Shown in pieces: positions 1 to 12,456 of a stretch of 57,561 nt of DNA. This DNA comes from a virus. The stretch's first letter is position 1; each line of letters opens with the position of its first letter. Under the pieces are notes generated by a model. The model had not been told where the DNA came from. It saw only the letters and a program-made list of their open reading frames with translations, and made no database searches. The DNA lies in IMG/VR virus record IMGVR_UViG_3300005095_000010, positions 1 to 57,561 of that record; one strand, 5' to 3'. The translations under genes were made by a program, and so were the position numbers.

Positions 1-18
1 TTCTCCTTAATTGTTAAA

Positions 19-33
19 GTTACAGGCTGTAAC
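19..33. repeat. Palindromic operator-like repeat, site 1 of 15
   Basis: GTTACAGGCTGTAAC, flanked by AAA/TTT to form a near-perfect 21-23 bp dyad. It lies between the leftward promoter at 75-103 and the Shine-Dalgarno (AAGGAG on the minus strand) of a gene that begins just left of the window. It is in the transcribed leader. Confidence 0.75.
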
Positions 34-74
34 TTTTCAGTTTTGTTACAGCACCTCATTCCAAATACAAGTGT

Positions 75-103
75 ATTATAACATCTTTACGGCAATTTGT
101 CAA
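75..103 (-). promoter_or_regulatory. Sigma70-type early promoter P1
   Basis: On the minus strand, TTGACA (98-103), a 17-nt spacer and TATAAT (75-80) with an extended -10 TGT. It points leftward to a gene outside the window and nearly touches the stop codon of the gene at 105. Its leader is almost identical to that of the promoter at 4439-4468. Confidence 0.85.
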
Positions 104-104
104 G

Positions 105-491
105 CTACCAGTCGTAGATAGCACCTATAAAATCCTGCTTAAACATCCATTCTAAATACTCCTCAAGCTCAGAATCGGTAATGGATAATTCTTCCCTCCT
201 ATCTAACATGGACTCATATAGAGATAAATATAGATACTGTTCAAATTTCTCTATATAAAATGTGTCCAACAACGTCCACCCCTTCTCATTAAAGAGATTT
301 GGGTATTCATACAAACCATAAATTCCTGTAAAAATTCCACCACGCACAGCTTTTTTATAAAGCTCAAACCTTTCTTGTAATGGGCGAGTTGTATCTCTAA
401 CATACTCTCTCAATACCTGACCTTGCTCTTTCACCTCCTCTAAAGCCCTTTCTGCGGCTGCAAAAGCTTCTTTAACCTCTTCATAATTCAT
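105..491 (-). CDS. Hypothetical protein, 128 aa
   Basis: Product unrecognised. Residues 1-50 are rich in Ala, Glu, Lys and Arg and look like a charged amphipathic helix or short coiled coil; the remainder is aromatic (several Tyr, Trp, Phe) with an acidic helix near the C terminus. No membrane segment or signal is visible, so it is probably a small soluble cytoplasmic protein. The start is supported by AAAGGAG six bases before ATG. It is the last gene of the leftward operon that begins at promoter 4439-4468, 25 bp beyond the 645-aa gene. Being an early gene of small size, a host-takeover role is possible, but that is inference only. Confidence 0.8.
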   Translation of the reverse strand: MNYEEVKEAFAAAERALEEVKEQGQVLREYVRDTTRPLQERFELYKKAVRGGIFTGIYGLYEYPNLFNEKGWTLLDTFYIEKFEQYLYLSLYESMLDRREELSITDSELEEYLEWMFKQDFIGAIYDW

Positions 492-516
492 CTCTGTCTC
501 CTTTCATTACAGCATA

Positions 517-2454
517 TCACTTACTCGACACAATCTTGTAAGGTTTACCATCAATCTTGATAGGGATATTCAACCCATCTTTACCATCTGCAATACCAAG
601 CACGATAGCACCATTTGGCTCAACATTAAAAGCGGTCTTATCACCTACAAGTTCAAGAACTTTACGATGCCCCTTCAATTCTGGCTTCATAGCATCAATA
701 AATAGCCCACGAATCTTCTCGTCAGATGTATATTTGTACCCGTCAAGCACAAAGAATGTGTGATGTAGGGTACTTTGCTCAGGGCTGCTCAAAATTGTTG
801 ATACGTCATACCACTTAGCTTCGACTTCCTTGTCAGAAACTTGGTAAGCAGATTTAAAGTTTACCATCTTACCATTAACAATCTCAAATTCCGCTACTAT
901 GACCTCTCCACTCAGCCGTCTCGGATAATGAATCACCTTAGTTACGTTAGGCGTGGCAATCTCTACATAGAAGTCCTCTTTTACAAAATTACTTCTACGA
1001 CTATACTGATGCACCTTTACAATATACTTACCATCTTCTGGTGAGGACGAGTAAATATTTTCTATTGGAGCTTTACCATCTCTACACCCACCTGCGTTCA
1101 TATCAACATCGAGTTTCCAAGCACCCACACAGCTATCACCAAAGTAAATATGACCTTTAGGAGTTATTATATGTAAATCCAAATCATCGCAGGCAAACCA
1201 AGCCAGAGAGACTCTATAAGGTGCTGTGATATTACCGCCATGTTTCTTAACAGCTTTTGCAATATTCGTAACATCACTTACACCTCCTTCATAAGTCCAA
1301 CCAAATCCACAACCCCAACGGTACATAGGTTTTGAACCTTTATGTAAAGGTACCGATGGAATTGCAATATGATTTCTGTCACTTTCCGTAACAGCTATCT
1401 GGACTGAATCAGCTTTATCAATCAGTCTCATTGCTTCACTCAATGACACCTCTTTACCAGAAGTTACACCCTGTAACTTTTTAGGTTTTGTTGGAAGTGT
1501 TCCAAGAATATCATCAACTTGGTCAGTTACTTCTGATTTTGGTGTAGACTCCCAAATAGTATGATGCTCAATATCAGCCAGTGTTGCGTGCCGTCTGAAA
1601 ATAGACTCAGAGTACCCTTCATCTTTTAGGAATTTTTGTGCAGCCTTTACTTGACGCTCACTTGCAATAGACTTTGCCCTCATGTAATTTGTTGGGTCAA
1701 CAGCCATAAGGTATTTCTTCTCTGCATCTTGAAGAGGAGTTCCTTTTACAATCTCATCAATAAGAATCCACATAGCAGAACCTTTCAGATGACTTGCTGG
1801 TTCCCCCCAGTTTCTTGCCAAGAAAAGGTTCTTATCTTTAGAAGAGTCATACTGCGGTTTCAAAGTCTTTGCACTCTCTACCATAGCTTTATAGGTATCA
1901 CCACGATAAATACCCTCATTGATATAACCAAGTACAGTATCAAGTACCTCCTCATCTACAGCCAATACATTACCAAGTGCCGTCATTCTACCTCTGATTC
2001 TTCCAAGCTCCGCCGTTGCATCCTTGTCAAACATTCTACCGTCTTGCTCAATATTGTAAAAGAAATGGTAGAATTTATCATGCCCCAGTACTGGCTCTTG
2101 GAGTACTGTCAACATCTTACCAGCCTGTGGAATATCTGTTAAGAAAGGTTCTACAATATTACAACCCTCAACATAATCTGCAACCTTACTTAGTACTACA
2201 TCTAATGGGTATGTCATAGATGCTCTTAGAATGGACTTACCATTCTCATCTACCACCTGACCCATATTTCTTAGGAAGTGAAAACAAGTATTACAGTCAT
2301 ACTCTCTACGCTCATTAAAGATTGGGTTTGTGCCTTCTGGGAAACCCTCTCTATAAATCTCTACAATTTTCTCTTTGTCTGCATCAGTTCTGTAAAATTC
2401 TTTTCTATCCCCGATGTAATCCGCCATTGTTTGTCCGATTTTTTTAAATTCCAT
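517..2454 (-). CDS. Conserved-type phage protein, 645 aa, with Cys motif and YfaP/DUF2135-like C-terminal region
   Basis: Largest gene of the leftward block. An N-terminal region holds a CNTCFHF motif (about residues 54-60), a compact Cys/His cluster that could bind metal. From about residue 410 there is a beta-rich segment of the form LAWFACDDLDLHIITPKG, LDVDMNAGG, ENI and GKYIVKVHQY, which resembles the YfaP/DUF2135 beta-sandwich fold. The middle part is mostly helical and charged. No membrane segment is visible. I cannot assign a function; the size within an otherwise small-gene operon suggests an early protein that may act on the host or be packaged. One of the 15 palindromes (1463-1477) lies inside the coding sequence and another lies just upstream of the start at 2481-2495. 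Confidence 0.85.
   Translation of the reverse strand: MEFKKIGQTMADYIGDRKEFYRTDADKEKIVEIYREGFPEGTNPIFNERREYDCNTCFHFLRNMGQVVDENGKSILRASMTYPLDVVLSKVADYVEGCNIVEPFLTDIPQAGKMLTVLQEPVLGHDKFYHFFYNIEQDGRMFDKDATAELGRIRGRMTALGNVLAVDEEVLDTVLGYINEGIYRGDTYKAMVESAKTLKPQYDSSKDKNLFLARNWGEPASHLKGSAMWILIDEIVKGTPLQDAEKKYLMAVDPTNYMRAKSIASERQVKAAQKFLKDEGYSESIFRRHATLADIEHHTIWESTPKSEVTDQVDDILGTLPTKPKKLQGVTSGKEVSLSEAMRLIDKADSVQIAVTESDRNHIAIPSVPLHKGSKPMYRWGCGFGWTYEGGVSDVTNIAKAVKKHGGNITAPYRVSLAWFACDDLDLHIITPKGHIYFGDSCVGAWKLDVDMNAGGCRDGKAPIENIYSSSPEDGKYIVKVHQYSRRSNFVKEDFYVEIATPNVTKVIHYPRRLSGEVIVAEFEIVNGKMVNFKSAYQVSDKEVEAKWYDVSTILSSPEQSTLHHTFFVLDGYKYTSDEKIRGLFIDAMKPELKGHRKVLELVGDKTAFNVEPNGAIVLGIADGKDGLNIPIKIDGKPYKIVSSK
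1463..1477. repeat. Palindromic repeat, site 2 (intragenic)
   Basis: GTTACACCCTGTAAC, the only copy fully inside a long coding sequence (the 645-aa gene). Both half-sites are intact although they must also encode protein. Confidence 0.6.
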
Positions 2455-2480
2455 TTTAATTCCTTTTTAAATTTTTTGAA

Positions 2481-2495
2481 GTTACAGGTTGTAAC
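2481..2495. repeat. Palindromic repeat, site 3
   Basis: GTTACAGGTTGTAAC in the short gap between the leftward genes at 2499 and 517, immediately upstream of the ribosome binding site of the 645-aa gene. Confidence 0.7.
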
Positions 2496-2498
2496 TTC

Positions 2499-2912
2499 TT
2501 AATCTGTGATTACCACACACTTAAATTCGTGACCGTTATCATCAAAATAAGTCACAGTGTACTTTTCAACTCTTGCCCACGAGTCCCTATATTCATCATC
2601 TTCTAACCATATATTGTATAGATTATCAATATACTCATCTTCTAGCCCTGAACTAAATACTCCTATACTTTTAGCCAAGTCTATTAATTGTTCCGTTTCG
2701 GGATTACACCATGTATTCCAGTCAAACTTTAGCTTTTCAACATACAGTGCATATAAGTTCAGCAACTTAACAACCTCATCTTTATCCTTATTAAAGATGC
2801 GTAGAGTGCCACCATCAATTTCAGTATCAAACCTAACTTCAATACAAAAAACATTTTTTGGTGGCTCTTTTTTAACAACCTCTACAGAAGTTTTTCTAAT
2901 ATTTGTAATCAC
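2499..2912 (-). CDS. Hypothetical protein, 137 aa
   Basis: Unrecognised acidic soluble protein. The N-terminal third is predicted beta (VFCIEVRFDTEIDGGTLRIF), followed by helical, Trp- and Tyr-rich segments and a C-terminal beta pair. No signal or membrane segment. It is the sixth gene of the leftward operon starting at 4364, only 11 bp after the gene at 2924. Start ATG is preceded by a GGAG-type site. Function cannot be inferred from the sequence. Confidence 0.75.
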   Translation of the reverse strand: MITNIRKTSVEVVKKEPPKNVFCIEVRFDTEIDGGTLRIFNKDKDEVVKLLNLYALYVEKLKFDWNTWCNPETEQLIDLAKSIGVFSSGLEDEYIDNLYNIWLEDDEYRDSWARVEKYTVTYFDDNGHEFKCVVITD

Positions 2913-2923
2913 TCACTACTCCT

Positions 2924-3340
2924 TTATAACTCCATTTGAGAATCTCTCCACTCATCATAACATCTATCCTCATAACTGCCAATAGCTGAGGCATACTCGG
3001 AATTTACCCACTCATCTTGTGATGGAAATTCAAACTCTTCATTAATAGAGTTGACAACATCTACCAAAGCTTCTGCTATTACCATATCTCCACCTCTAGC
3101 ACTTGTGGCTTTTTCATACGCCCACTGTGTAAGGTCGTCTACATAGTGTTTACCTCTATACTCTGCTAACAGTTTTTTTACTGGCTCAAGAATACCATCA
3201 CCTTTCAGCTCTGCTTCGGCATAGGTATTCAGATACTCATTCCAAGCCTCCTCCTCGGCATCCCAATAATCGCCCTCATGGTCTTCATAAAACTGTTTCC
3301 AACCATCAGCACCCTCTAATTTCTTAGCTCCGTAACACAT
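2924..3340 (-). CDS. Hypothetical acidic protein, 138 aa
   Basis: Unrecognised, strongly acidic (many Glu and Asp), Trp- and Tyr-rich. It begins MCYGAKKLEGADGWKQF and has no membrane segment. The start is well supported: AAGGAGG lies six bases before ATG, and palindrome site 4 sits directly upstream of that ribosome binding site. High acidity in a small early phage protein is sometimes linked to mimicry of DNA or binding of nucleic-acid enzymes; nothing in this sequence proves that here. Confidence 0.75.
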   Translation of the reverse strand: MCYGAKKLEGADGWKQFYEDHEGDYWDAEEEAWNEYLNTYAEAELKGDGILEPVKKLLAEYRGKHYVDDLTQWAYEKATSARGGDMVIAEALVDVVNSINEEFEFPSQDEWVNSEYASAIGSYEDRCYDEWRDSQMEL

Positions 3341-3356
3341 AAATACCTCCTTAAAA

Positions 3357-3371
3357 GTTACAGGCTGTAAC
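3357..3371. repeat. Palindromic repeat, site 4
   Basis: GTTACAGGCTGTAAC between the leftward genes at 3371 and 2924. Its last base overlaps the stop codon of the 57-aa gene, and the next bases lead into the AAGGAGG of the downstream gene. Confidence 0.75.
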
Positions 3372-3544
3372 TATTTAGTATACTTGGCAACTGTGATAAT
3401 AGTTTTAGCAAGCATAAAGAATCCCATAAAGATTACAGCGGCAAGATGTCGGGAATTACCTTCCATCTTGTCAAGCTCCTCTCTTACTGATTCTGAAATT
3501 GTATCAACATCCTGCTCAAATTGCATTTGTCCTGAGATACGCAT
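3371..3544 (-). CDS. Small single-span membrane protein, 57 aa
   Basis: Short gene: ATG at 3544, stop TAG at 3371. The protein starts MRISGQMQFEQDV, has a charged helical N-terminal half, and ends with a hydrophobic helix (LAAVIFMGFFMLAKTIITVA) and a short basic tail, so it is probably anchored in the inner membrane by its C terminus. AAGGA lies about six bases before the start; a second ATG one codon upstream overlaps the preceding stop (TGATG). The coupling to the gene at 3547 and the filled gap support it as real. Function unknown. Confidence 0.65.
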   Translation of the reverse strand: MRISGQMQFEQDVDTISESVREELDKMEGNSRHLAAVIFMGFFMLAKTIITVAKYTK

Positions 3545-3546
3545 CA

Positions 3547-3960
3547 TCAATCCTTCAGTGCTGCTCTAAGTTCCGCAATTTCTGCTTCAAGAGACTTGGT
3601 ATCTTTACCTTTGAGTGCTTCCAACTCCTTCTCTTCTTTAAGCTGTTCAAGCAATGCAAGTTTCTCTTTGAGCTGTGCTTTCTTAGTAGCTTCTTCACGC
3701 TCCGCTGTGCGGGTCTCATACACATCCTCCACAAGTGCAACAACCAGCTCTGCAACATTATCTTTACTGGTACGTTTAGTTAGTGACAACTTACTTGAGG
3801 ATTTTGTCTGAGCCTTGAATTTTGCATACACACTCTCAAGGGATTCCCCAACTTTACTCTCAGTAGGTAGTCCCCACAATGCCACAAATGAGAAAGTTTT
3901 ATGAACTCCCTCGATTTTCAAATTTACTTTTGCCGCCTCTTTCCAAATATTTTTTGCCAT
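3547..3960 (-). CDS. Hypothetical coiled-coil protein, 137 aa
   Basis: The N-terminal half (about residues 1-60) is mixed and basic. From about residue 85 to the end the sequence is a nearly continuous Lys/Glu/Leu/Ala heptad-like helix (TAEREEATKKAQLKEK and LEAEIAELRAALKD), a clear coiled coil that should make it oligomerise. The start ATG has AGGAG seven bases upstream. It lies 11 bp after the gene at 3972 in the same leftward operon. Product unrecognised. Confidence 0.8.
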   Translation of the reverse strand: MAKNIWKEAAKVNLKIEGVHKTFSFVALWGLPTESKVGESLESVYAKFKAQTKSSSKLSLTKRTSKDNVAELVVALVEDVYETRTAEREEATKKAQLKEKLALLEQLKEEKELEALKGKDTKSLEAEIAELRAALKD

Positions 3961-3971
3961 AATTTCTCCTT

Positions 3972-4364
3972 TTATCTTTCTTCACTGTTCTTAAAGAACT
4001 CATCAATATCATACCCATAAATACCCAAGATTGTTTCAACATTTTTAGATGATTTGAGATAATCCACCACCACTTCGTGCATAATTGCTTTCCCCTCGTC
4101 AGTAAGGTTATTTACAATATCTGCAATCAGCTCTGCTGTAATTGCATCTTTTTGGTATTTCTTACACAACACACCCTCTACAACCGTAGATACTATTTTT
4201 TGAATGACCACAGAATTATCTTCTGAATTAAACATAATCCACAAATCAACCGCCAGTTGGTGGTCTGTGTCTAACACACCATTTTTATAATCTTCAAGTG
4301 TCTGTTCAGCACTGCTAAACCCTAATGACTTCGCCACGTCATCACTTCTTTTTACTACTAACAT
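3972..4364 (-). CDS. Hypothetical helical protein, 130 aa, paralogue of the 7941 gene
   Basis: First gene of the operon driven by promoter 4439-4468. I place the start at the ATG beginning MLVVKRSDDVAKSLGF, because AAGGAG lies six bases before it and the longer open frame would run through the leader palindrome. The protein is all-helical. Its pattern of SLGFSS, a Tyr-Lys-Asn-Gly-x-Leu-Asp turn and QLAVDLWIMFNS matches AFGYET, FKNNKLD and ELAVEIVMVFQS in the 128-aa protein at 7941-8327, so the two are paralogues. Each is the promoter-proximal gene of its operon. Function unknown. Confidence 0.75.
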   Translation of the reverse strand: MLVVKRSDDVAKSLGFSSAEQTLEDYKNGVLDTDHQLAVDLWIMFNSEDNSVVIQKIVSTVVEGVLCKKYQKDAITAELIADIVNNLTDEGKAIMHEVVVDYLKSSKNVETILGIYGYDIDEFFKNSEER

Positions 4365-4386
4365 CTTTTTCTCCTTAATTGTTAAA

Positions 4387-4401
4387 GTTACAGGCTGTAA
4401 C
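4387..4401. repeat. Palindromic repeat, site 5
   Basis: GTTACAGGCTGTAAC in the leader downstream of promoter 4439-4468 and directly upstream of the AAGGAG of the gene ending at 3972. Confidence 0.75.
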
Positions 4402-4438
4402 TTTTCAGTTATCAGCACCTCATTCCAAATACTTCAGT

Positions 4439-4468
4439 ATTATACCATTTTTATATAACACCTGTCAA
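4439..4468 (-). promoter_or_regulatory. Sigma70-type early promoter P2
   Basis: Minus strand TTGACA (4463-4468), 18-nt spacer, TATAAT (4439-4444) with extended -10 TGG. It starts the leftward operon 4364 to 105. Copy A of the 79-bp element ends only 3-4 bp upstream of the -35 box. Confidence 0.85.
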
Positions 4469-4471
4469 GTT

Positions 4472-4550
4472 TTGCCCATAAGTTTTTCTTATTTCACGCT
4501 GTACAGGGGCTTTGCGGGTGGGTGGTCAAGACCATCAGTATAGTTTCCCT
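4472..4550 (-). repeat. 79-bp structured element, copy A
   Basis: Read on the minus strand it is identical over 79 bp to copy D (53531-53609). It contains the hairpin GGT-CTTG-ACC, the palindrome CTGTACAG and the hairpin ATAAG-AAAAA-CTTAT closed by GCCC/GGGC. It begins exactly after the stop codon of the gene at 4551 and runs into the -35 box of promoter P2. It is inverted relative to copies B, C and D. Confidence 0.85.
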
Positions 4551-4934
4551 CTACTTAGCTTTTTTAATCATAAGTTTTACACCCTTTCTAATATTTCTTA
4601 GTGTCCTCCTATCAGCTTCGGTCTCATAAAATTCTTTTAATAGTGGTGGGTTATATTCCTTAGCCAAACGACCTAAGTCTGCAAAATCACAATCACGTAC
4701 TTTTGTTTCATACAATTCTGCTAAATAGATATAATCTTTAGCGGTGAACCCATCTGTTTCAATGCTTGTGTAAGCTTTCCCTTTAAATTCATACCACTCA
4801 GTGTTGAGCTCCCTGTCGAAATAATGCCCATCTTTTCCAAAAATTGGTTTAACTTCTTTAAACACAGTGGTATCATCAAACCCACCATCCTTATAATAAC
4901 TTTTTGGTATAGAAAACCTCTTAAATCTACTCAT
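4551..4934 (-). CDS. Hypothetical protein, 127 aa
   Basis: Unrecognised soluble protein with a basic N terminus (MSRFKRFSIPKSYYKDGG), an aromatic acidic middle and a very basic C-terminal helix (RRTLRNIRKGVKLMIKKAK) that could contact nucleic acid. AAGGAGG precedes the start. It is the distal gene of a three-gene cassette (5521 to 4551) bracketed by inverted copies A and B of the 79-bp element. A degenerate copy of the early palindrome overlaps a TATAAT-like hexamer at 4955-4969, so it may have its own weak promoter. Confidence 0.75.
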   Translation of the reverse strand: MSRFKRFSIPKSYYKDGGFDDTTVFKEVKPIFGKDGHYFDRELNTEWYEFKGKAYTSIETDGFTAKDYIYLAELYETKVRDCDFADLGRLAKEYNPPLLKEFYETEADRRTLRNIRKGVKLMIKKAK

Positions 4935-4954
4935 TTTCTTTGACCTCCTTGAAA

Positions 4955-4969
4955 ATTATACCCTGTAAC
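4955..4969. repeat. Palindromic repeat, site 6 (degenerate, fused to a -10-like hexamer)
   Basis: ATTATACCCTGTAAC: one half-site is intact and the other has become ATTATA, which on the minus strand reads TATAAT, about 20 bp upstream of the start of the gene at 4551-4934. No -35 box is visible at the right distance. Confidence 0.45.
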
Positions 4970-5064
4970 TTTACAGAATACCCTCACAGTTTAACAAAAC
5001 CACCCCAAAAATCCATTTTCTACCCCTCACCCATACTCAGGCATAGGTAAGGTGTAGAAGTGGT

Positions 5065-5301
5065 TTATTTTGCGTGTTTTTTGTAAGCCTCTCTAATTCT
5101 TCTTAATCTTGTCTTGCTAAGACCTTGCATTTCTGACAATTCTTTTAAGAGACTATCAAGAATTTGATAAGAATCTTGTCCAACATTATCAATATTTTTG
5201 GAGAGAGCTTTAAATTGCTCCCAAGCTTCGGCATGTTTGGCTTCATCTTGTGTGTAATAAGCCTTACCATTCACAACATATCTCACCTCTTTTTTAATCA
5301 T
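5065..5301 (-). CDS. Hypothetical basic helical protein, 78 aa
   Basis: I choose the ATG at 5301, which overlaps the end of the upstream gene and has AGGTGG seven bases before it; a GTG three codons upstream is less likely. The protein is helical and basic, beginning MIKKEVRYVVNGKAYYTQDE and ending in an Arg/Lys-rich helix (SKTRLRRIREAYKKHAK). It could bind nucleic acid, but no known domain is recognised. It overlaps its upstream neighbour, so the two are probably translationally coupled. Confidence 0.7.
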   Translation of the reverse strand: MIKKEVRYVVNGKAYYTQDEAKHAEAWEQFKALSKNIDNVGQDSYQILDSLLKELSEMQGLSKTRLRRIREAYKKHAK

Positions 5302-5521
5302 CACTGCCACCTATTTCCTCATAAATATCAAAAGCATAGCAATACTCCCATCGGTCTCTATTATTTGTATCAGTTAAAACTGTACCTGACTCGTCAAATC
5401 CTGTAACTTCTACAATAGTACCAATATCAAATGTGGCAGTACCACTCAACAATTTAAATCTTTTACCAATATCTTTTTCCGTAAGATTGTCTATATCCTC
5501 TTCATGCCAAATTTTACACAT
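5294..5521 (-). CDS. Hypothetical small beta-rich protein, 75 aa
   Basis: Begins MCKIWHEEDIDNLTEKD and contains a run of short beta strands (GKRFKLLSG, FDIGTIVEVTGFDESGTVLTD, WEYCYAFDI) resembling a small SH3-like barrel. AAGGAG seven bases before ATG fixes the start. It is the first gene of the cassette lying between the inverted 79-bp copies A and B; copy B begins 28 bp upstream of it. No clear promoter lies upstream. Function unknown. Confidence 0.7.
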   Translation of the reverse strand: MCKIWHEEDIDNLTEKDIGKRFKLLSGTATFDIGTIVEVTGFDESGTVLTDTNNRDRWEYCYAFDIYEEIGGSDD

Positions 5522-5548
5522 TTTTACTCCTTAAAATTTTACTCTCTA

Positions 5549-5621
5549 AGGGAAACTATACTGATGGTCTTGACCACCCCCTCGCAAATGCCCGCCACAG
5601 CGGCAAATAAGTTTTTCTTAT
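5549..5621 (+). repeat. 79-bp structured element, copy B (diverged)
   Basis: Shares the first 33 bases with copies A, C and D up to the GGT-CTTG-ACC hairpin, then has its own version of the middle hairpin (CCGC-CACA-GCGG, a longer pairing than in copy C). The last hairpin is ATAAG-TTTTT-CTTAT, i.e. the same stem with the loop inverted. It is on the opposite strand to the adjacent genes. Confidence 0.8.
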
Positions 5622-5641
5622 AGCAATTTTTAGCTATTTTT
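5620..5641 (+). terminator. Possible rightward terminator after copy B
   Basis: Stem ATAGC...GCTAT followed by TTTTT on the plus strand. It sits directly after copy B and points rightward, although neighbouring genes are leftward. The remaining bases to 5720 hold nothing else recognisable. Confidence 0.45.
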
Positions 5642-5720
5642 GTATCATTTTCGGGGCTGTTTCCTCTAAGGTGTTACATTAAACCCTCGCAGGTATATTT
5701 TTGAAATATGGATAGTCAGA

Positions 5721-6038
5721 TTACTCCGACTTTACCCCATACTTCTTGTCAATTTCTGCACCGATTTCTTCGAGAGTTTTATAAACCCATTTTGGAAATG
5801 TATCTCCATCACCAGTCACTTGCTCAGAAACCCAACCCATAAATGTTTTATAGATACTTGGTAGTTCCTCTTCACTTGATTTTGTATGGAATGGTACTAA
5901 TGCAATCAGTGATGATAACATGCTCCCCTGCTCCATAGTCAATGAGCCTGTGGCTACATTTTTTGCAAGCACCTTTGATGAGATTTCCGCCACTTCTTTA
6001 ACTACCTTATCCATTTTTTCATTACTTACTTTACTCAT
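5721..6038 (-). CDS. Hypothetical helical protein, 105 aa
   Basis: Begins MSKVSNEKMDKVVKEVAEISSKVLAKNV; the N-terminal half is one long amphipathic helix, followed by a Met/Ser/Leu-rich helix and a Trp-containing C-terminal region ending EIDKKYGVKSE. No membrane segment or recognised motif. A GGAA-type site precedes the start, and its ATG overlaps the stop of the 60-aa gene upstream. It is the last gene of the operon driven from promoter 8452-8480. Function unknown. Confidence 0.75.
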   Translation of the reverse strand: MSKVSNEKMDKVVKEVAEISSKVLAKNVATGSLTMEQGSMLSSLIALVPFHTKSSEEELPSIYKTFMGWVSEQVTGDGDTFPKWVYKTLEEIGAEIDKKYGVKSE

Positions 6039-6217
6039 TTTCTTTCCTTATATTCTCTTTTCATATTATCCAGCATTTCTGCACTCATATACTCAATCTC
6101 CACCCCACAAACAGAGGCTACTTTATAAGCCCCTGTCCGATTAATGGTTATTACCTTTTTAGTTTGTGGGCAAGCCAGCCAATAGCGGCTAGTGTCAGCA
6201 TTTTTTATCACTCTCAT
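6035..6217 (-). CDS. Hypothetical protein, 60 aa
   Basis: Small basic protein beginning MRVIKNADTSRYWLACPQTKKVITINRTG. It overlaps the 3' end of the ATPase gene by 23 bp and the start of the next gene by 4 bp (ATGA), which is typical of translational coupling. Two cysteines (in WLACP and ASVCG) are present but there is no complete metal site. The size and packing suggest a small accessory protein of the upstream ATPase; function is not inferable from sequence. Confidence 0.65.
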   Translation of the reverse strand: MRVIKNADTSRYWLACPQTKKVITINRTGAYKVASVCGVEIEYMSAEMLDNMKREYKERK

Positions 6218-6797
6218 TGTAATCCTCCAATGTAATTAGTTGGGGGCAGTCAAAACTGAACCGTTGTTTTTTGATACTTGCAGAACATTGCCCTGATTCT
6301 TTATCTCTGTGGAAAATAGCTACAGTATCAGCCCCCTCAAATAATGATGTAGAGCCCTCAAGGGTATTATCAGCTTTTGTATGGTGTACCAAGATGATTG
6401 TAAGTCCTGATTCACGTGCAAGTTTTGTAAGCTCTGTCATAAGCTCATAAGCGTGTTCATCATCATTGATATCAACCTTACTATTTGCACCAAAAGCTTT
6501 TAGGGTATCCACAAATACCACATCATTATGGTCAGCATACTTAGAAATACCTATAAGTCCATTCAGGCTCACACCCTCATAGCTTGGTATACCCATAACG
6601 CTTTCATCACTGTTTATGTAGACAACATTATACCCATCACGTTTGAGTTTCTTATATAACCCCTCCAAATATACCGATTTCCCAACACCACTGGCACCTG
6701 CGAAAATGTTAACACCGCCATGTGCAAAGCACTGTAATCCTTCAAGTGGTTTTAACTCCTCTGCCTTTACTACGTTAAGCTGTTTTGTATCAAGCAT
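6195..6797 (-). CDS. RecA-fold ATPase (AAA_25/RepA-like), 200 aa
   Basis: Compact RecA-type P-loop ATPase. Walker A is GASGVGKS at residues 34-41, Walker B is VVFVD at about 93-97, and ILVHHTK at about 135-141 matches the sensor motif of the RepA/AAA_25 and RadA-like group. It lacks an N-terminal DnaB domain and a zinc finger, so it is a minimal ATPase core. In phages such proteins act as helicase, helicase loader or recombination ATPase. GGAGG lies upstream of ATG and the gene overlaps its upstream neighbour. It is the only clearly enzymatic member of the operon from 8327 to 5721, far from the Rep and SSB genes at 52-55 kb. Confidence 0.85.
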   Translation of the reverse strand: MLDTKQLNVVKAEELKPLEGLQCFAHGGVNIFAGASGVGKSVYLEGLYKKLKRDGYNVVYINSDESVMGIPSYEGVSLNGLIGISKYADHNDVVFVDTLKAFGANSKVDINDDEHAYELMTELTKLARESGLTIILVHHTKADNTLEGSTSLFEGADTVAIFHRDKESGQCSASIKKQRFSFDCPQLITLEDYNESDKKC

Positions 6798-7092
6798 GTG
6801 TGCCTCCTGATTCTGTTGCGTGTTCTGCTACCTCTTCTACCAACTCCTCACCCATAGCTTCCCCAGCTTCGTCCCAAGCTTCATACAACAAAGCTTTCAA
6901 AGCTTCGATATATAGTGCCATCTTTGAATTATCAACCATATAGGTCTCAAATGGGTGGGGGTGCGAGGTGTAATAGTGCCATACCCACATAACAATAGCC
7001 GTGACTCCACCAAATAGGAGTACCTTAAACCCCACCACTCTCACGGCTTTATAAGCCCTTACAACCTTCTCTTCAATTCTCATCTCTCTCAT
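6790..7092 (-). CDS. Single-pass membrane protein, 100 aa
   Basis: A basic N terminus (MREMRIEEKVVRAYKAVR) is followed by one hydrophobic helix (about residues 19-40, VVGFKVLLFGGVTAIVMWVW) and an acidic soluble tail with Glu/Ala repeats. The positive-inside rule predicts a cytoplasmic N terminus. AGGAG precedes the ATG. The gene overlaps the RecA-fold ATPase by 8 bp, so a role in localising replication or another early process at the membrane is conceivable but unproven. Confidence 0.75.
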   Translation of the reverse strand: MREMRIEEKVVRAYKAVRVVGFKVLLFGGVTAIVMWVWHYYTSHPHPFETYMVDNSKMALYIEALKALLYEAWDEAGEAMGEELVEEVAEHATESGGTHA

Positions 7093-7100
7093 TTTTACTC

Positions 7101-7202
7101 CTAATTATACAATGAAGCAAGATATAAAATTCCACAAAACACCACAAAATCCACCGCCCAGACAAATGCACGCTCTTTAGTGCTGATTGGATGTCTTTTC
7201 AT
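7101..7202 (-). CDS. Membrane microprotein, 33 aa
   Basis: ATG at 7202, TAG at 7101. The sequence MKRHPISTKERAFVWAVD continues into FVVFCGILYLASLYN: a basic N terminus and a single hydrophobic helix. AAGGAG lies about six bases upstream of the start, the stop lies 8 bp before the next gene's ATG, and the start overlaps the end of the 61-aa gene. These spacing features support a real gene despite its length. Confidence 0.6.
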   Translation of the reverse strand: MKRHPISTKERAFVWAVDFVVFCGILYLASLYN

Positions 7203-7362
7203 GTTGTACTCCTTGCTTTTGTTTACGTCTCACTACCCGAATATTTGAAAATTTAGGACGATAACCTCTAACGTACTTACGTTTGATTACAATCCCACCA
7301 CTGATTGTTACCATAACTAAAGAGTGTGCAATCAACTCTTCCAACAATGCTGATTCAATCAT
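7177..7362 (-). CDS. Hypothetical small protein, 61 aa
   Basis: Begins MIESALLEELIAHSLVMVTISGG, a moderately hydrophobic helix, followed by a strongly basic tail with many Arg and Lys (RKYVRGYRPKFSNIRVVRRK). The ATG overlaps the stop of the 29-aa microprotein (ATGA). The tail could bind nucleic acid or phospholipid. It overlaps the downstream 33-aa gene by 26 bp. Product unrecognised. Confidence 0.6.
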   Translation of the reverse strand: MIESALLEELIAHSLVMVTISGGIVIKRKYVRGYRPKFSNIRVVRRKQKQGVQHEKTSNQH

Positions 7363-7448
7363 TCTACTTCTCCTGCTATGATAATGTACATCATTGCAAT
7401 CATAAAGACCACAAATGCCACGTCTTCAACAATACTTGGTTCTACCAT
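7359..7448 (-). CDS. Membrane microprotein, 29 aa
   Basis: ATG at 7448, TGA at 7359. An acidic N terminus (MVEPSIVEDV) is followed by one hydrophobic helix (AFVVFMIAMMYIIIAG) and a Glu-rich end. GGAG precedes the ATG, which lies 2 bp after the stop of the 74-aa gene, and the stop forms ATGA with the next start. This tight packing makes it a credible gene. Confidence 0.6.
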   Translation of the reverse strand: MVEPSIVEDVAFVVFMIAMMYIIIAGEVE

Positions 7449-7450
7449 AA

Positions 7451-7675
7451 TCACTCCTTAATGTTATCCTTTACCCAAGCTTCTACAGCTTCTCTGTGTT
7501 TATGATAATAACCATCAACACTCGTACCTGTATACAGTGCTTCCATAGCCTTGTAAGTTACAGGAATACCTTTCCATTTGTCCGGGTTAGACATATACAC
7601 CACCTCATTCGTAACCTTGTTACAGATTACAAAGTCGAACTCGAAAGGGAATATTACTAAATCTTCAATGTTCAT
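7451..7675 (-). CDS. Hypothetical protein, 74 aa
   Basis: Unrecognised soluble protein with an aromatic N-terminal part (MNIEDLVIFPFEFDFVICNK) and a helical C-terminal half ending in VEAWVKDNIKE. The leader contains AAGGAT, and palindrome site 7 sits 16 bp upstream of the start. It is the third gene of the 8327-to-5721 operon. No domain, signal or membrane segment is seen. Confidence 0.7.
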   Translation of the reverse strand: MNIEDLVIFPFEFDFVICNKVTNEVVYMSNPDKWKGIPVTYKAMEALYTGTSVDGYYHKHREAVEAWVKDNIKE

Positions 7676-7690
7676 GTTAAATCCTTAAAA

Positions 7691-7705
7691 GTTATAGGCT
7701 GTAAC
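7691..7705. repeat. Palindromic repeat, site 7
   Basis: GTTATAGGCTGTAAC between the genes at 7709 and 7451. One half-site is GTTATA instead of GTTACA; in the minus-strand RNA this would give a C-A mismatch, which favours recognition as DNA. Confidence 0.7.
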
Positions 7706-7708
7706 TTA

Positions 7709-7957
7709 TCAGGCTATGATAAGTACTTCCTCAATACAGTGCTTAGGCACTTCATAGAATCTACCTACACCATACTCCCAAGTATAGGTATCTTCAATCT
7801 CATCATACACTACATTAATCTCCCTACACTCACCCAAGTATTGGTCAAGGGATTTGTCTGGAAACCCAGTAGGTTTGATAATAACTGTCATGTATTCTAC
7901 AGAAAACTCTGGCGGAGTTTTAAGCTTCTCCCAGAATTTTCTAATCTTTGTCAACAT
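7709..7957 (-). CDS. Hypothetical protein, 82 aa
   Basis: Begins MLTKIRKFWEKLKTPPEFSVEY and then has beta-rich segments (YMTVIIKP, CREINVVYDE, TYTWEYGVGRFYEV), suggesting a small alpha/beta fold. It overlaps the 3' end of the 128-aa gene by 17 bp, so it is probably translated by coupling. No recognised motif. Confidence 0.7.
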   Translation of the reverse strand: MLTKIRKFWEKLKTPPEFSVEYMTVIIKPTGFPDKSLDQYLGECREINVVYDEIEDTYTWEYGVGRFYEVPKHCIEEVLIIA

Positions 7958-8327
7958 CTCCCATACCTCCTAATGTGGACAACAGTTCCGAGATATCTGG
8001 CTGTTTTGGCAGTTCCATAGATTGTTGCAAACGCTTTTTAAAGTCTCCAACAGCTTTTTCGGGGATGGTATTTACCAAAGTTTCTGCCATACCAGATACC
8101 GTGGTACACCCATACAAAGCTTCCATAGTTGCAATGTACATTATCTGAGCATTTCTTGGAAGGCTTTGAAATACCATTACAATCTCTACTGCGAGCTCTT
8201 GATTTTTGTCCAGCTTGTTATTTTTGAAGGCTGTTAGTAATTCACCCATAGTTTCATAGCCGAAAGCCTCCGAGATTTTTTCCGTGCCTTTTTTAAGACT
8301 TAGTTTTTTCTCAGTTGTTTGTTTCAT
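7941..8327 (-). CDS. Hypothetical helical protein, 128 aa, paralogue of the 3972 gene
   Basis: First gene of the leftward operon from promoter 8452-8480. All-helical protein starting MKQTTEKKLSLKKGTEKISEAF, then AFGYETMGELLTAFKNNKLD and ELAVEIVMVFQS, which align with the 130-aa protein at 3972-4364. Both paralogues are first genes of operons whose leaders are also related, so promoter, leader and first gene appear to have duplicated together. Start is supported by AAAGGAT upstream. Function unknown. Confidence 0.75.
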   Translation of the reverse strand: MKQTTEKKLSLKKGTEKISEAFGYETMGELLTAFKNNKLDKNQELAVEIVMVFQSLPRNAQIMYIATMEALYGCTTVSGMAETLVNTIPEKAVGDFKKRLQQSMELPKQPDISELLSTLGGMGDVDKD

Positions 8328-8395
8328 TGTTAATCCTTTAAAGTTAATTTAGGCTGAGACCAAATTCTCATTAAGAAGTGGTGAGCTTCGCCAAA

Positions 8396-8410
8396 GTTAT
8401 AGGCTGTAAC
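8396..8410. repeat. Palindromic repeat, site 8
   Basis: GTTATAGGCTGTAAC in the long leader between promoter 8452-8480 and the gene at 7941-8327. A complementary extra half-site (GTTACAGC on the plus strand) lies at about 8422-8429. Confidence 0.7.
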
Positions 8411-8451
8411 TTTTCAAATTTGTTACAGCACCTCAATTAAATTGTAACCGT

Positions 8452-8480
8452 ATTATAACATCTTTACAAGTATTTGTCAA
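8452..8480 (-). promoter_or_regulatory. Sigma70-type early promoter P3
   Basis: Minus strand TTGACA (8475-8480), 17-nt spacer, TATAAT (8452-8457), extended -10 TGT. It drives the leftward genes from 8327 to 5721. Its leader shares the sequence GAGGTGCTGTAAC with P1 and, in part, with P2. Confidence 0.85.
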
Positions 8481-8494
8481 GCTTATAATACTAA

Positions 8495-8692
8495 TTAAGT
8501 TAACTTAAATCCACAGATTTTCTCTGCTTCTTTAGTTGCATTGTAGGATGTTGTCAAATCAACTATCCCATTTACATAATTCCAGTGTGTTTTTGTTGCT
8601 TTTTGGATAGCTTCTTCACACTGGGGTGTCAGATTTTCGGTGGACTGCACAGAAATTGTGCAGAAAACTGCAAATAATAATACCTTACTCAT
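8495..8692 (-). CDS. Small probable secreted protein, 65 aa
   Basis: The N terminus (MSKVLLFAVFCTISVQSTE) looks like a signal peptide, with a possible cleavage near residue 17. The mature part has two cysteines (PQCEEA and KICGF) that could form a periplasmic disulfide. It starts inside the end of the kinase-like gene (ATGAGTAA arrangement), so it is translationally coupled to it. A periplasmic role such as superinfection exclusion is possible, but that is a guess from location and size. Confidence 0.65.
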   Translation of the reverse strand: MSKVLLFAVFCTISVQSTENLTPQCEEAIQKATKTHWNYVNGIVDLTTSYNATKEAEKICGFKLT

Positions 8693-9284
8693 TACCGTCC
8701 TCCAAAATATTTTTTACACTTGTGTAGTGCAGTTGTTTTAGTGGTTCTGGGTAGTACCCATTAACGTCTATAACACTCCAATCAAAGAACAGGTCATTAA
8801 GTACCAACTTACCATTATAAGCCATCAGGTTTCTTGGAGAAACCTCCATACACAAATCATACGGGTTAATGTAATTGGATAGGTGCATTACAATTCCTAC
8901 TAATTCGTCACGAAGCCCTTTTAACTTGAACCCCTCACACACTTCCAAAATGTCGTGGTATCCTTTTATGGATGAATAGTACCACCCAGTACTACCAGTA
9001 GGTTTCCTAAAAGCTTTTAACAAATATTGGTAATATTTGTAGTATAATGTAGTCAACTGCCGTTTAGGGGCTGTCAATTTTTCATACTTAGGTGATAGGA
9101 GTACAGAAACTTCTGGGTGTGACTCAATACTACCTCTAAATTCATAGGTAGGTGTCATCCTACCCCCATCATATTCAGATAAAGCGTTCTTTACTGGGCA
9201 GATAGTAGCAATAACAGCATTATTACCATCAATTCCCCAAACTTTAGTGAAGGCTCCTCTTCCAATCACTTCTATTTTGCTCAT
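8685..9284 (-). CDS. Protein-kinase-like protein, 199 aa
   Basis: Residues 7-14 (IGRGAFTKVW) resemble the glycine-rich nucleotide-binding loop of protein kinases. Residues 147-152 (EVSPRN, within CMEVSPRNLM) sit where the catalytic loop D-x4-N is expected, followed by KLVLNDLFFD (159-168), which corresponds to the metal-binding segment seen in phage kinase-like proteins as LND. The catalytic Asp is Glu147 here, so activity may be altered or lost. At 199 aa it is shorter than a canonical kinase of about 250 aa. Phage kinases of this sort modify host RNA polymerase or translation factors in T7-like phages. It overlaps both neighbours and belongs to the leftward group 8495-9960. Confidence 0.65.
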   Translation of the reverse strand: MSKIEVIGRGAFTKVWGIDGNNAVIATICPVKNALSEYDGGRMTPTYEFRGSIESHPEVSVLLSPKYEKLTAPKRQLTTLYYKYYQYLLKAFRKPTGSTGWYYSSIKGYHDILEVCEGFKLKGLRDELVGIVMHLSNYINPYDLCMEVSPRNLMAYNGKLVLNDLFFDWSVIDVNGYYPEPLKQLHYTSVKNILEDGNE

Positions 9285-9382
9285 TTTTTACCCCTTCTAT
9301 TTAACTGATGTGGTTCATACCACCATATTGCTCCAACGGTGAAGCTTATTACTATTGTCTGCTCCATTACTTCATGTGCCAT
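9281..9382 (-). CDS. Microprotein, 33 aa
   Basis: ATG at 9382, TGA at 9281 overlapping the start of the kinase-like gene (ATGA). The sequence begins MAHEVMEQTIVISFTVGAIWWY and ends in a basic tail. The middle is a short hydrophobic helix, so membrane attachment is possible. AAGGAG lies five bases upstream of the ATG, with palindrome site 9 directly before it. Real-gene evidence is the ribosome site and the exact coupling. Confidence 0.6.
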   Translation of the reverse strand: MAHEVMEQTIVISFTVGAIWWYEPHQLNRRGKK

Positions 9383-9397
9383 ATCAACTCCTTAAAA

Positions 9398-9412
9398 GTT
9401 ACAGCCTGTAAC
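9398..9412. repeat. Palindromic repeat, site 9
   Basis: GTTACAGCCTGTAAC in the gap between the leftward genes at 9412 and 9281, just upstream of AAGGAG. Confidence 0.7.
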
Positions 9413-9927
9413 TATGCAATATCTTTGAAGAACGAGTCTACACTCTTCATAGTTACTTGTTTATTCACACCATGTACCGCTTTCTCACCATAGATTCTGC
9501 TAAGTTTTGGTAGCTCCTCCTCTCTATCAAACATAGTGTTCCATGTTCGGTGGTTGATGCCGTTAAGAGCCTGCTTTACTGTTACAGTGGCATGGTTAAA
9601 AATTACTCCCATGCTTTCTTGAATTTCATCAAGGTCTTTGAATGTGTTTACAGAATCCCAGTATTTTCCATCAAATTCCAATACTGCGTGGTAGCAGTTT
9701 GCAGGCTTACCACTATTGAGTTTTTCCAGCTCGGCATCATCCATATCTTTGGCAAATAGCCAAAGCATTTTTACTTTGCCTTTAAACTCTGGATAAGTTT
9801 TTTCTACCCACCGTTTATGCGTCAGTGCAATGATGGCACACCCTCCTTGGTTAGGACAATCTACAACACTGTCCACCTCATCCAACTTCTTTCTAAACTC
9901 TCTGTGGACTTTATTAAGCATACTCAT
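9412..9927 (-). CDS. Hypothetical protein with possible papain-like Cys/His pair, 171 aa
   Basis: I choose the ATG at 9927 (MSMLNKVHREFRKKL) because AAGGGGGT precedes it by eight bases; an in-frame ATG at 9960 would add 11 residues. A cysteine at the start of a helix (CPNQGGCAIIALTHKRW) and a later His in a beta segment followed by an Asp (NCYHAVLEFDGKYWDS) are spaced as in papain-fold cysteine peptidases or transglutaminase-like proteins. That is a pattern match only. The C-terminal part is basic and helical. No signal peptide is seen, so it would act in the cytoplasm. Confidence 0.7.
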   Translation of the reverse strand: MSMLNKVHREFRKKLDEVDSVVDCPNQGGCAIIALTHKRWVEKTYPEFKGKVKMLWLFAKDMDDAELEKLNSGKPANCYHAVLEFDGKYWDSVNTFKDLDEIQESMGVIFNHATVTVKQALNGINHRTWNTMFDREEELPKLSRIYGEKAVHGVNKQVTMKSVDSFFKDIA

Positions 9928-9977
9928 TCTTGTTACCCCCTTAATTATTTTCTTTAACATATTTTTCTACCTTAAAA

Positions 9978-9992
9978 GTTATAGTCTGTAAC
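9978..9992. repeat. Palindromic repeat, site 10
   Basis: GTTATAGTCTGTAAC between the lipoprotein gene at 10045 and the gene at 9412. Confidence 0.65.
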
Positions 9993-10044
9993 TTTTCAGG
10001 GACTGCCCGATTTTGAACAATTCCTGAAAAGTAAGTTTCAATTT

Positions 10045-10332
10045 TTATGTACCATAGTAATAGTATGTGTGTGTATTGCAGTCATTCTCCCATACCCGAA
10101 TTTCCACAATATCATCAGCCATCCACCCAATTTCTGTATAAGTGTCGGCGTTACTGTCCCACTCATATACCATACTTTCAACTTCATCTTCCAGTAAATG
10201 CACTGGGGTATAAATGTCCTCTTCAAGTGTCATAGGGCACTCATTAGTCACTCCTGACACCATCTCAGCTACCTCTCCACATCCTGAGAGGCATATGCCA
10301 GCCATGATTGCCGCTACTATAAAATTCTTCAT
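10045..10332 (-). CDS. Putative lipoprotein, 95 aa
   Basis: The first 18 residues (MKNFIVAAIMAGICLSGC) form a signal peptide ending in the lipobox LSGC, so signal peptidase II cleavage before Cys18 and lipid attachment are predicted. The mature protein is strongly acidic and Tyr-rich, with two further cysteines (NECPM and NDCNT) that may form a disulfide. It would be exposed in the periplasm or under the outer membrane. Phage-encoded early lipoproteins often block superinfection; that role is inference. The leader shares a TTAACGATTAAGGAT segment with the gene at 10436. Confidence 0.75.
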   Translation of the reverse strand: MKNFIVAAIMAGICLSGCGEVAEMVSGVTNECPMTLEEDIYTPVHLLEDEVESMVYEWDSNADTYTEIGWMADDIVEIRVWENDCNTHTYYYYGT

Positions 10333-10367
10333 GTTAAATCCTTAATCGTTAATTTAGTTTGTTAAAA

Positions 10368-10382
10368 GTTACAACCTGTAAC
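10368..10382. repeat. Palindromic repeat, site 11
   Basis: GTTACAACCTGTAAC in the leader of the lipoprotein gene, between it and the gene at 10436. Confidence 0.65.
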
Positions 10383-10435
10383 TTCTCAAATTTTGTTAGG
10401 GAGTGTTAATCTCCTACCACTATTTTATCAGAATT

Positions 10436-10780
10436 TTACCAGTTTCCGTCAAGCCCTACCTCTGCTTGAGAGGCATCATTATAGACCGCATACACTTTTA
10501 ACTGAAACTCCGCACAAATGGTAAACTCTTTCCCGAACCCATCGGGCTCTTGTACGACGTACCAGTACTGTCGTACACCTGTTTGGGCACTTTTTTTACT
10601 ATCATGGATTGTGTTAACTAAATCCAATTTATTAACAGCCTCTCTGTAAGCTATTGAAAAATCCTGCCCGTGAATGAACAGATTCTGTGAAACATCTGTC
10701 TCAAACTTAGTACTCTCCAACACTCTCTTTACGGTTCCAGTCAGTTCAAATCTGAACCCTGCAAGTTTTTTGTTACTCAT
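10436..10780 (-). CDS. Hypothetical protein, 114 aa
   Basis: Begins MSNKKLAGFRFELTGTVKRVLE and alternates beta strands with one helix (DFSIAYREAVNKLD); the C-terminal half is aromatic and beta-rich. It looks like a small soluble alpha/beta protein with no recognised family. AAGGAT precedes the ATG, in a leader almost identical to that of the lipoprotein gene. It is probably the first gene of the group running down to 8495; its promoter is not obvious, though a TATAAT lies at 10934-10939 on the minus strand. Confidence 0.7.
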   Translation of the reverse strand: MSNKKLAGFRFELTGTVKRVLESTKFETDVSQNLFIHGQDFSIAYREAVNKLDLVNTIHDSKKSAQTGVRQYWYVVQEPDGFGKEFTICAEFQLKVYAVYNDASQAEVGLDGNW

Positions 10781-10820
10781 TTGCCAATCCTTAATCGTTA
10801 ATTTAGTCGGAAGCTAAAAA

Positions 10821-10835
10821 GTTACAACCTATAAC
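10821..10835. repeat. Palindromic repeat, site 12
   Basis: GTTACAACCTATAAC upstream of the gene at 10436-10780. Confidence 0.65.
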
Positions 10836-11128
10836 TTTTTAGTTAGCTACCATGTATATACACATTTTTAAAAAGATATGTATATAAATAGTACCTATAA
10901 CTACCAATTTCCTACACCAATAGTATAACATAAATTATACTAAGTTACAAGCACCCACCAAACACCTCGCAACCCAAATTTTGTGAATTTCCAAGCAACC
11001 CCAAAATTTGGGGATTACCAGAATTTTACCAGATTGCTAAAAACAGTTTTACTGTTTATTAACAGCGTGGGCGTGGGCATTGGTAGGGTTTTGCCGTATT
11101 TTACCCAAATTTGTTAGTTTGCTAAAAA

Positions 11129-11143
11129 GTTACTGGCTATAAC
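11129..11143. repeat. Palindromic repeat, site 13
   Basis: GTTACTGGCTATAAC, a slightly degenerate copy in the non-coding region 10781-11279. Confidence 0.55.
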
Positions 11144-11174
11144 TTTTCTTTGGGTTAGTTTGTGAATATTTTTG

Positions 11175-11188
11175 TGAACATACGTTCA
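11175..11188. promoter_or_regulatory. LexA-box-like palindrome 1 (TGAAC-N4-GTTCA)
   Basis: TGAACATACGTTCA, extended by G/C to a 16-bp dyad (11174-11189). GAAC-N4-GTTC is the core of the Gram-positive-type LexA box. A second copy lies at 12806-12819. Confidence 0.45.
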
Positions 11189-11195
11189 CTTTTGT

Positions 11196-11228
11196 ACAGG
11201 AACTTATCAGTTGTTGATAAGTTCCTGT
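11196..11228. repeat. Perfect 14-bp inverted repeat
   Basis: ACAGGAACTTATCA, a 5-nt loop GTTGT, then TGATAAGTTCCTGT. No T-run follows on either strand, so it is not a standard intrinsic terminator; a transcript end-protecting stem or a protein site are alternatives. Confidence 0.6.
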
Positions 11229-11240
11229 CGGGTTTGTGTG

Positions 11241-11304
11241 AGATGCTTTAAAGCATCTGTAAAGCTTTTTGAAGATGCTTTAAAGCATCTGTAAAGCTTT
11301 TTGA
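11241..11304. repeat. Tandem 32-bp duplication (two perfect copies)
   Basis: Units 11241-11272 and 11273-11304 are identical. Each contains the 18-bp perfect palindrome AGATGCTTTAAAGCATCT. The second unit encodes the last residues and stop of the gene at 11280-11924. Confidence 0.85.
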
Positions 11305-11924
11305 AGGTAAGCGTTAACGGTTGCTAACGTGTTCTTTTTTTCTTTGCTTGCATGGTAATCTTGTGCGATATCTTCCAACTCCGCCACAAGGTCGAAAAAC
11401 TGATTCTCCAACTCTTCGACGGATTTGGTCGCTAACTCTGAAGCATGGTTAATAACTTCATCTTTAATCGCTTGCACCTCTTTTTTAGTGTCAACCTTTA
11501 CCGCTTCGGTTTTTGTCTCCGCCTTACCGCTTACCGTTTTAACCTTTGCAGAGTGGTTTTGCTTCTCTTTACCCTCTTTTCTAATCTCTTTGAGTTTTGC
11601 CATACTTGCTTTATCACCTAAAGCTATAATAGCGTCCACTACTTTAAAGTCCACTTGGTAAGCTTGTGACTTACCGTTAATGGACTTCTTATCATACATA
11701 CGCCCGACTACCATAGCAACATGCTTAAACGTCCCTATGCCAGTCTCTTTTGCTTCACTGTTGAGTTTTCCGTTAATAGTAGCTAACTCATTGTAAGATA
11801 CTTTACCACTCTTTACAAGTTTTGCCAGTGCCATAAGGTACTGTGCGTTTGATGCCTCCGCACTTTTAACTGTTTTGATGTACTCGTTTGTTAGTGCCTT
11901 ACCAGTCTTGAATGAAGTTTTCAT
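11280..11924 (-). CDS. Hypothetical basic helical protein, 214 aa
   Basis: Monocistronic leftward gene directly behind promoter 11973-12002. The protein is mostly helical and rich in Lys, Ala and Glu. Residues about 1-110 form a basic domain (MKTSFKTGKALTNEYIKTVK), the middle (about 110-145) is a Lys-rich linker that looks disordered, and the C-terminal part is an acidic coiled coil ending YLQKALQML. Basic N terminus plus coiled coil would suit a DNA-binding oligomer, and its place next to the candidate origin is suggestive, but no family is recognised. The ATG has AAAGGAT upstream. Confidence 0.75.
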   Translation of the reverse strand: MKTSFKTGKALTNEYIKTVKSAEASNAQYLMALAKLVKSGKVSYNELATINGKLNSEAKETGIGTFKHVAMVVGRMYDKKSINGKSQAYQVDFKVVDAIIALGDKASMAKLKEIRKEGKEKQNHSAKVKTVSGKAETKTEAVKVDTKKEVQAIKDEVINHASELATKSVEELENQFFDLVAELEDIAQDYHASKEKKNTLATVNAYLQKALQML

Positions 11925-11972
11925 TTGTTTATCCTTTAAAATGTTAATTTGCCCTTATTGGGCTGTAATCGT

Positions 11973-12002: not shown

Positions 12003-12012
12003 CCTCTTAAAA

Positions 12013-12027
12013 GTTACAACCTATAAC
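12013..12027. repeat. Palindromic repeat, site 14
   Basis: GTTACAACCTATAAC between the end of the gene at 12030 and the -35 box of promoter P4. Confidence 0.65.
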
Positions 12028-12029
12028 TT

Positions 12030-12320: not shown

Positions 12321-12369
12321 GTTAATCCTTTAAAAGTTATTTGCAACCGCTTAACAGTTGCTTGGCAGT

Positions 12370-12441: not shown

Positions 12442-12456
12442 GTTACAACCTATAAC
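12442..12456. repeat. Palindromic repeat, site 15
   Basis: GTTACAACCTATAAC upstream of promoter P5; the rightmost member of the family. I saw no further copy to the right. Confidence 0.65.

Follow-up and report, generated by a model that had tools for sequence, protein, structure and literature searches.

Inverted repeats of the Streptomyces phage phiC31 serve as operators of its c-gene repressor, and we know of no operator-derived leader hairpin described for this phage. In T4-type phages, the PeSL elements combine an early promoter and a stem-loop in a repeated intergenic unit around which genes are shuffled. Cluster A mycobacteriophages such as L5 and Bxb1 carry 20-30 stoperators, many of them in short intergenic gaps, that block elongation, and heteroimmune phages have distinct stoperator consensuses (PMC6550527, PMC9283540). 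Here we describe a dispersed palindromic site, best read as a DNA operator, and a set of early leaders built partly from it, in IMG/VR virus record IMGVR_UViG_3300005095_000010 (57,561 bp, hereafter the window). The source of the window is a tailed phage, a virus of bacteria, with genes for terminase, portal, capsid, head protease, endolysin, exonuclease and four transfer RNAs, and with a leftward block of small early-type genes from base 1 to ~12,500.

The window phage carries a near-perfect dyad more than ten times in one genome, as does phiC31, for which a dyad count in AJ006589 gave 15 copies of a ACTCACGTGAGT-centred near-perfect dyad, several between annotated genes. The two sets have no sequence relation, however; in phiC31, copies are found among late genes too, and a repressor and an integrase are annotated, neither of which was recognised in the window genes searched. 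With L5 the window phage shares many copies in short gaps between genes read in one direction, but the L5 site is 13 bp long, asymmetric, orientation-dependent and bound by a monomer, whereas the window site is a 15-bp dyad without fixed orientation. The window phage differs from the PeSL arrangement in that its stem-loop uses half a DNA operator, copies of which are found away from promoters too. If these sites do act as operators, an uncultivated phage group would have a palindromic form of dispersed-operator (stoperator-like) control that is independent of the one in a few actinobacterial phages.

A Dispersed Dyad in the Early Region

An earlier note on the same DNA had placed three promoters (P1-P3) on the minus strand, each followed by a leader with three short arms of which the second could pair with either the first or the third. 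The promoters are where it put them, with exact TTGACA and TATAAT boxes and spacers of 17, 18 and 17 bp; seven sites with exact boxes and such spacing occur in the window, against 0.14 expected. The three arms of each leader, read directly on the minus strand, are likewise present as described. The dyad formed by arms 2 and 3 is not confined to the three leaders, however, but recurs in 15 copies between 19 and 12456 (Table 1). The sequence GTTACAGSCTGTAAC had 17 matches at ≤3 mismatches, where 1.45 were expected and 0 of 100 shuffles reached 17, and 15 of these, all within 19-12456, were kept as the operator set, a 15-bp dyad with the extended consensus AAAAGTTAYAnnnTRTAACTTTT. When perfect 6-bp dyads were counted over the whole 57.5 kb, the operator family ranked first, and no copy was found beyond the early region. 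All copies except one (14/15) are outside annotated coding sequence, mostly in gaps of the leftward early genes; many come after a stop codon and ahead of the following ribosome-binding site, often with the next start codon 16-27 bp away. The operator spacer is found in both orientations.

With five proteins or alignments as queries, IMG/VR gave only two related contigs, one of them reaching the early region; a GTDB scan for relatives found none, and a search with the leader pattern hit this same contig plus one chance match in structural genes. The contig, IMGVR_UViG_3300026521_000074 (G001, 47.7 kb), encodes a terminase and a capsid protein with 92% and 90% identity to those of the window phage, and its matching early DNA is mostly only ~67-68% identical across the long stretches. 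Its early region holds 17 copies of a dyad with the consensus GTCAYA-N3-TRTGAC; none lies elsewhere on the contig, where a single further match with 3 mismatches was found. A test for regular spacing of the copies was suggestive for G001 (p = 0.0015), while the window showed no significant regularity (p = 0.10). At dyad position 3/13, 30/30 window half-sites have T/A and 33/34 half-sites of G001 have C/G; among the sites with this shift are nine that correspond in gene context, including one inside the gene for a 645-amino-acid protein. Since the sites are scattered and their flanks differ, such a concerted change speaks for a single trans-acting recogniser with altered specificity. If so, two phages with very similar virion genes and switched operator specificity would form a natural experiment on the joint change of a regulator and ~15 sites.

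An RNA stem on the transcribed strand should tolerate G.U over C.A pairs, and the non-Watson-Crick dyad pairs of the 32 sites of both phages divide into 8 G.U and 9 C.A (binomial p = 1). A terminator scan of positions 1-13000 gave 9 terminator-like sites with no operator copy among them. Given the missing RNA-strand bias, the missing terminator call and a copy ahead of the P4 -35 box in each phage, arms 2 and 3 are best read, on the sequence evidence, as a double-stranded DNA operator.

A Predicted Leader Hairpin Built From Half a Probable Operator

Six leaders were compared, namely those of P1-P3 and of the G001 promoters Q1-Q3 (window promoters are numbered P1-P4, their G001 counterparts Q1-Q4 and Q4a). 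In all six, the operator starts 34-41 nt past the -10 box, or roughly +28 to +35 relative to the expected start. Arms 2 and 3 together read GTTACAGCCTGTAAC at 33..19 (P1) and 4401..4387 (P2), and GTTACAGCCTATAAC with one C.A mismatch at 8410..8396 (P3), so that arm 2 is the upstream half of the operator. An arm with strong complementarity to this half was found upstream of the promoter-proximal copies only, the non-leader sites of the window having no comparable complement. Against shuffled upstream sequence the match was significant for P1 and P3 (p < 0.0005); P2 was missed by this ungapped test because of a bulged A. The G001 site at 39332, at the end of a coding sequence, showed a weaker upstream match (p = 0.018), about that expected from 32 tests.

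The pairing of arms 1 and 2 is supported by covariation between the two phages, in which arm 1 follows the specificity shift: 47 of 48 positions are paired across the six leaders, with three G.U pairs, no C.A and one A.A, and only 12 of 720 reassignments gave an equally good result. MAFFT aligned arm 1 out of register, and pairs were therefore counted by script, not with a covariance model. The inserted A that the earlier note had seen in P2 does bulge the stem, yet 8 pairs are kept. Predicted folding energies for the six leaders were -7.9 to -13.3 kcal/mol for the 1:2 hairpin and -2.3 to -7.2 kcal/mol for 2:3, with 1:2 ahead in each leader, and the partition function gave 2:3 an appreciable share in P2 only (0.34). 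By these predictions, arms 1 and 2 resemble a constitutive 5' stem-loop in which half an operator supplies one strand. The P4, Q4 and Q4a leaders are without arm 1 and also open with a stem-loop, of unrelated sequence, while no outstanding stem-loop was seen in the leaders of promoters 19026, 53633 and, in G001, 34459. Promoter 54607, beyond the early block, is followed by a weak A/T hairpin, so the contrast with early leaders is not absolute.

The hexamer directly ahead of arm 1 (window 52-57, 4416-4421 and 8429-8434) is GAGGTG in five of the six leaders and GAGTTG in the sixth. It resembles a ribosome-binding sequence, and no start codon position is conserved downstream.

Table 1. Promoters, first leader arms, operator copies and a candidate regulator gene in the window.
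Feature	Position	Strand	Remarks
Promoter P1	75..103	-	TTGACA-17-TATAAT, exact boxes
Promoter P2	4439..4468	-	TTGACA-18-TATAAT, exact boxes
Promoter P3	8452..8480	-	TTGACA-17-TATAAT, exact boxes
Promoter P4	11973..12002	-	TTGACA-18-TATAAT; leader opens with unrelated stem-loop GCCC-AATAA-GGGC
P1 leader arm 1	45..52	-	GCTGTAAC; GAGGTG just before
P2 leader arm 1	4408..4416	-	GCTGATAAC; extra bulged A
P3 leader arm 1	8422..8429	-	GCTGTAAC
Operator copy 1	19..33	-	GTTACAGCCTGTAAC; 33-26 doubles as leader arm 2 (P1)
Operator within 645-amino-acid coding sequence (517-2454)	1463..1477	-	G001 ortholog has a copy at the equivalent place
Operator between g2 and g1	2481..2495	-	
Operator overlapping g4 stop codon	3357..3371	-	17 bp ahead of g3
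Operator downstream of P2	4387..4401	-	4401-4394 doubles as arm 2
Operator ahead of g7	4955..4969	-	Degenerate
Operator between g16 and g15	7691..7705	-	
Operator downstream of P3	8396..8410	-	C.A mismatch in dyad; 8410-8403 doubles as arm 2
Operator at g20 stop codon	9398..9412	-	
Operator ahead of g20	9978..9992	-	
Operator ahead of g21	10368..10382	-	
Operator ahead of g22	10821..10835	-	
Operator in g23-g22 gap	11129..11143	-	
Operator just upstream of P4 -35 box	12013..12027	-	Equivalent place occupied in G001
Operator upstream of g24	12442..12456	-	Outermost copy
g23, 214 amino acids	11280..11924	-	First gene after P4; predicted N-terminal helix-helix-helix-strand-strand, winged-helix-like

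A Roadblock Model and Its Alternatives

We consider it probable, with moderate confidence, that the early region carries dispersed DNA operators at which a dimeric phage regulator acts as a roadblock, and that the leaders add a constitutive 5' stem-loop. A phage-specific, phage-encoded dimer would bind the operator array across the leftward early region. At P1-P3, a regulator bound ~28-35 bp past the start would leave the promoter uncovered and stop departing or elongating polymerase, and at the other intergenic copies it would block read-through in the manner of a stoperator. Once transcribed, arm 1 would pair with the upstream operator half and give early mRNAs a stable 5' stem-loop, which would most likely serve constitutively to protect the 5' end or as a spacer there, possibly stabilizing the mRNA, and not as a switch. 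The leader arm would then add a case of one stretch constrained both as a DNA site and as an RNA stem. Several observations weigh against this model. The copy before P4 is upstream of the -35 box and could mean activation instead of blocking. Because some of the six leaders are in part duplicates of others, independent covariation events are few and the p-values optimistic, and a single related phage with an early region was found in the IMG/VR and GTDB searches. Moreover, no repressor, integrase or partition gene was seen in the families searched (gene coverage being incomplete), and a helix-turn-helix candidate at 16889-17143 keeps an identical recognition helix despite the changed site.

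Arm 1 might instead be a third DNA half-site that loads the same regulator at promoters, the hairpin being incidental. We think this unlikely, although TGTAAC or TGTGAC lies within arm 1 of most leaders and arm 1 tracks the specificity shift between the two phages. The distance from arm 1 to the operator (11, ~6, 11, 6, 6 and 7 bp across the six leaders) varies by half a helical turn, and the inserted A in P2 breaks the half-site while leaving its 8 pairs. At the outer base of arm 1, T replaces the near-invariant C in two of the six leaders, while 2 of 64 half-sites of operators have T there (Fisher p = 0.034). Pairing also reaches into the operator spacer, which is RCC in 6/6 leaders and in 6/26 operators elsewhere (p = 0.001); in Q2 it includes a double change from C-G to T-A for which a half-site gives no reason. 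Judging by the outer T and the RCC spacers, what constrains arm 1 seems to be RNA pairing and not use as a third half-site. Conversely, all copies could act as RNA, as intergenic hairpins for ribonuclease processing or for an RNA-binding protein, with the leaders as a special form. Most copies do lie in transcribed gaps, from stop codon to ribosome-binding site, their stem can lengthen by outward A-U extension, and symmetric changes between the phages would fit RNA too. The even split of G.U and C.A mismatches, the poor pairing of the P3, Q1 and Q2 copies and the copies upstream of the P4 promoter in both phages (though read-through from further upstream could transcribe these) make an RNA role for every copy distinctly unlikely.

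The attenuator proposed in the earlier note, or a riboswitch-like leader, in which 1:2 as antiterminator would compete with 2:3 as terminator or repressor and so set early expression, is in our judgement improbable. On paper, either pairing does rule out the other, and both exist in P1 and P2; the pairing of arms 1 and 2 is conserved, and some copies are followed by short T-runs. The pair does not resemble a balanced attenuator, however, as 1:2 outweighs 2:3 in 6/6 leaders. The 7-bp second stem GTTACAG/CTGTAAC cannot form, since its loop would be 1 nt, and the actual inner maximum is 6 bp around GCC, extendable outward by A-U pairs. The weakening of this stem in P3 was correctly noticed and is a C.A mismatch; a C.A mismatch also breaks 2:3 in Q1 and Q2, so that half of the leaders have a mismatched 2:3 stem. 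Nor was a terminator with a U-tract found, the T-run being just 3 bases in P1-P3 and no 2:3 hairpin of the window being flagged as a terminator. Copies of 2:3 show no G.U preference, no leader open reading frame that could encode a leader peptide is conserved across the six leaders, and an Rfam search matched no riboregulator family. P1-P3 probably do not carry a two-way RNA switch, and half of a dispersed DNA operator is the better account of their third arm. A view of the copies not as regulatory sites but as boundaries for recombination or module shuffling, such as has been proposed for T4-type intergenic signals, seems very improbable: early genes are re-ordered around these elements between the two phages, but shuffling predicts neither a phage-wide specificity shift nor copies kept within coding sequence, and the flanks are not conserved. 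There is an even slimmer chance that one regulator recognises both operator DNA and the nascent 1:2 hairpin, with early transcripts titrating or recruiting their own regulator; the operator half would then be a dual DNA/RNA code, in which arm 1 would have to change in step with any shift of specificity.

Candidate Regulators

Under the roadblock model, g23 is a speculative candidate for the operator-binding protein. Its structure model is winged-helix-like, with good confidence for residues 1-115, and it had no significant fold or sequence match. The helix-turn-helix gene at 16889-17143 was ranked lower as a candidate, since the two phages differ in their sites and share the same recognition helix. 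Searches with Pfam, PHROGs and NCBIfam gave no repressor gene among the candidate genes, not every gene having been searched. The phage may not be temperate, as the genes searched included no recognisable repressor or integrase, and any lysogenic role of the operators is hypothetical.

Other Features of the Early Region and of Unrelated Phages

The early modules stand in a different order in window 1-12500 and in G001. For example, the 645-amino-acid gene is downstream of g5 in the window and upstream of promoter Q3 and g5 in G001. Its product (517-2454) belongs to phrog_1735, a widespread phage family without assigned function, found in 471 phage records at <60% identity. An ~80-bp element with the core GGTGGTCAAGACCATC occurs at window 4472-4550, 5532-5611, 19387-19483 and 53512-53613, as an inverted pair around genes 7-9 and two further distant copies. 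The copies at 4472-4550 and 53531-53609 are 100% identical over 79 bp, and fragments are also present in G001; the element may represent the end of a mobile cassette, a terminator or an element of replication.

A pattern search with the palindrome alone gave 38 stretches, mostly single matches in unrelated phages. Two records with several dyad copies each (G003 and G005) were set aside as analogies only, having no proteins in common with the window phage in the stretches examined. Two unrelated phage records (L069 and L070) have ~4 copies each of similar AAAAGTTA-dyads spaced over their first 6-11 kb, and these are possibly further cases of dispersed operators.

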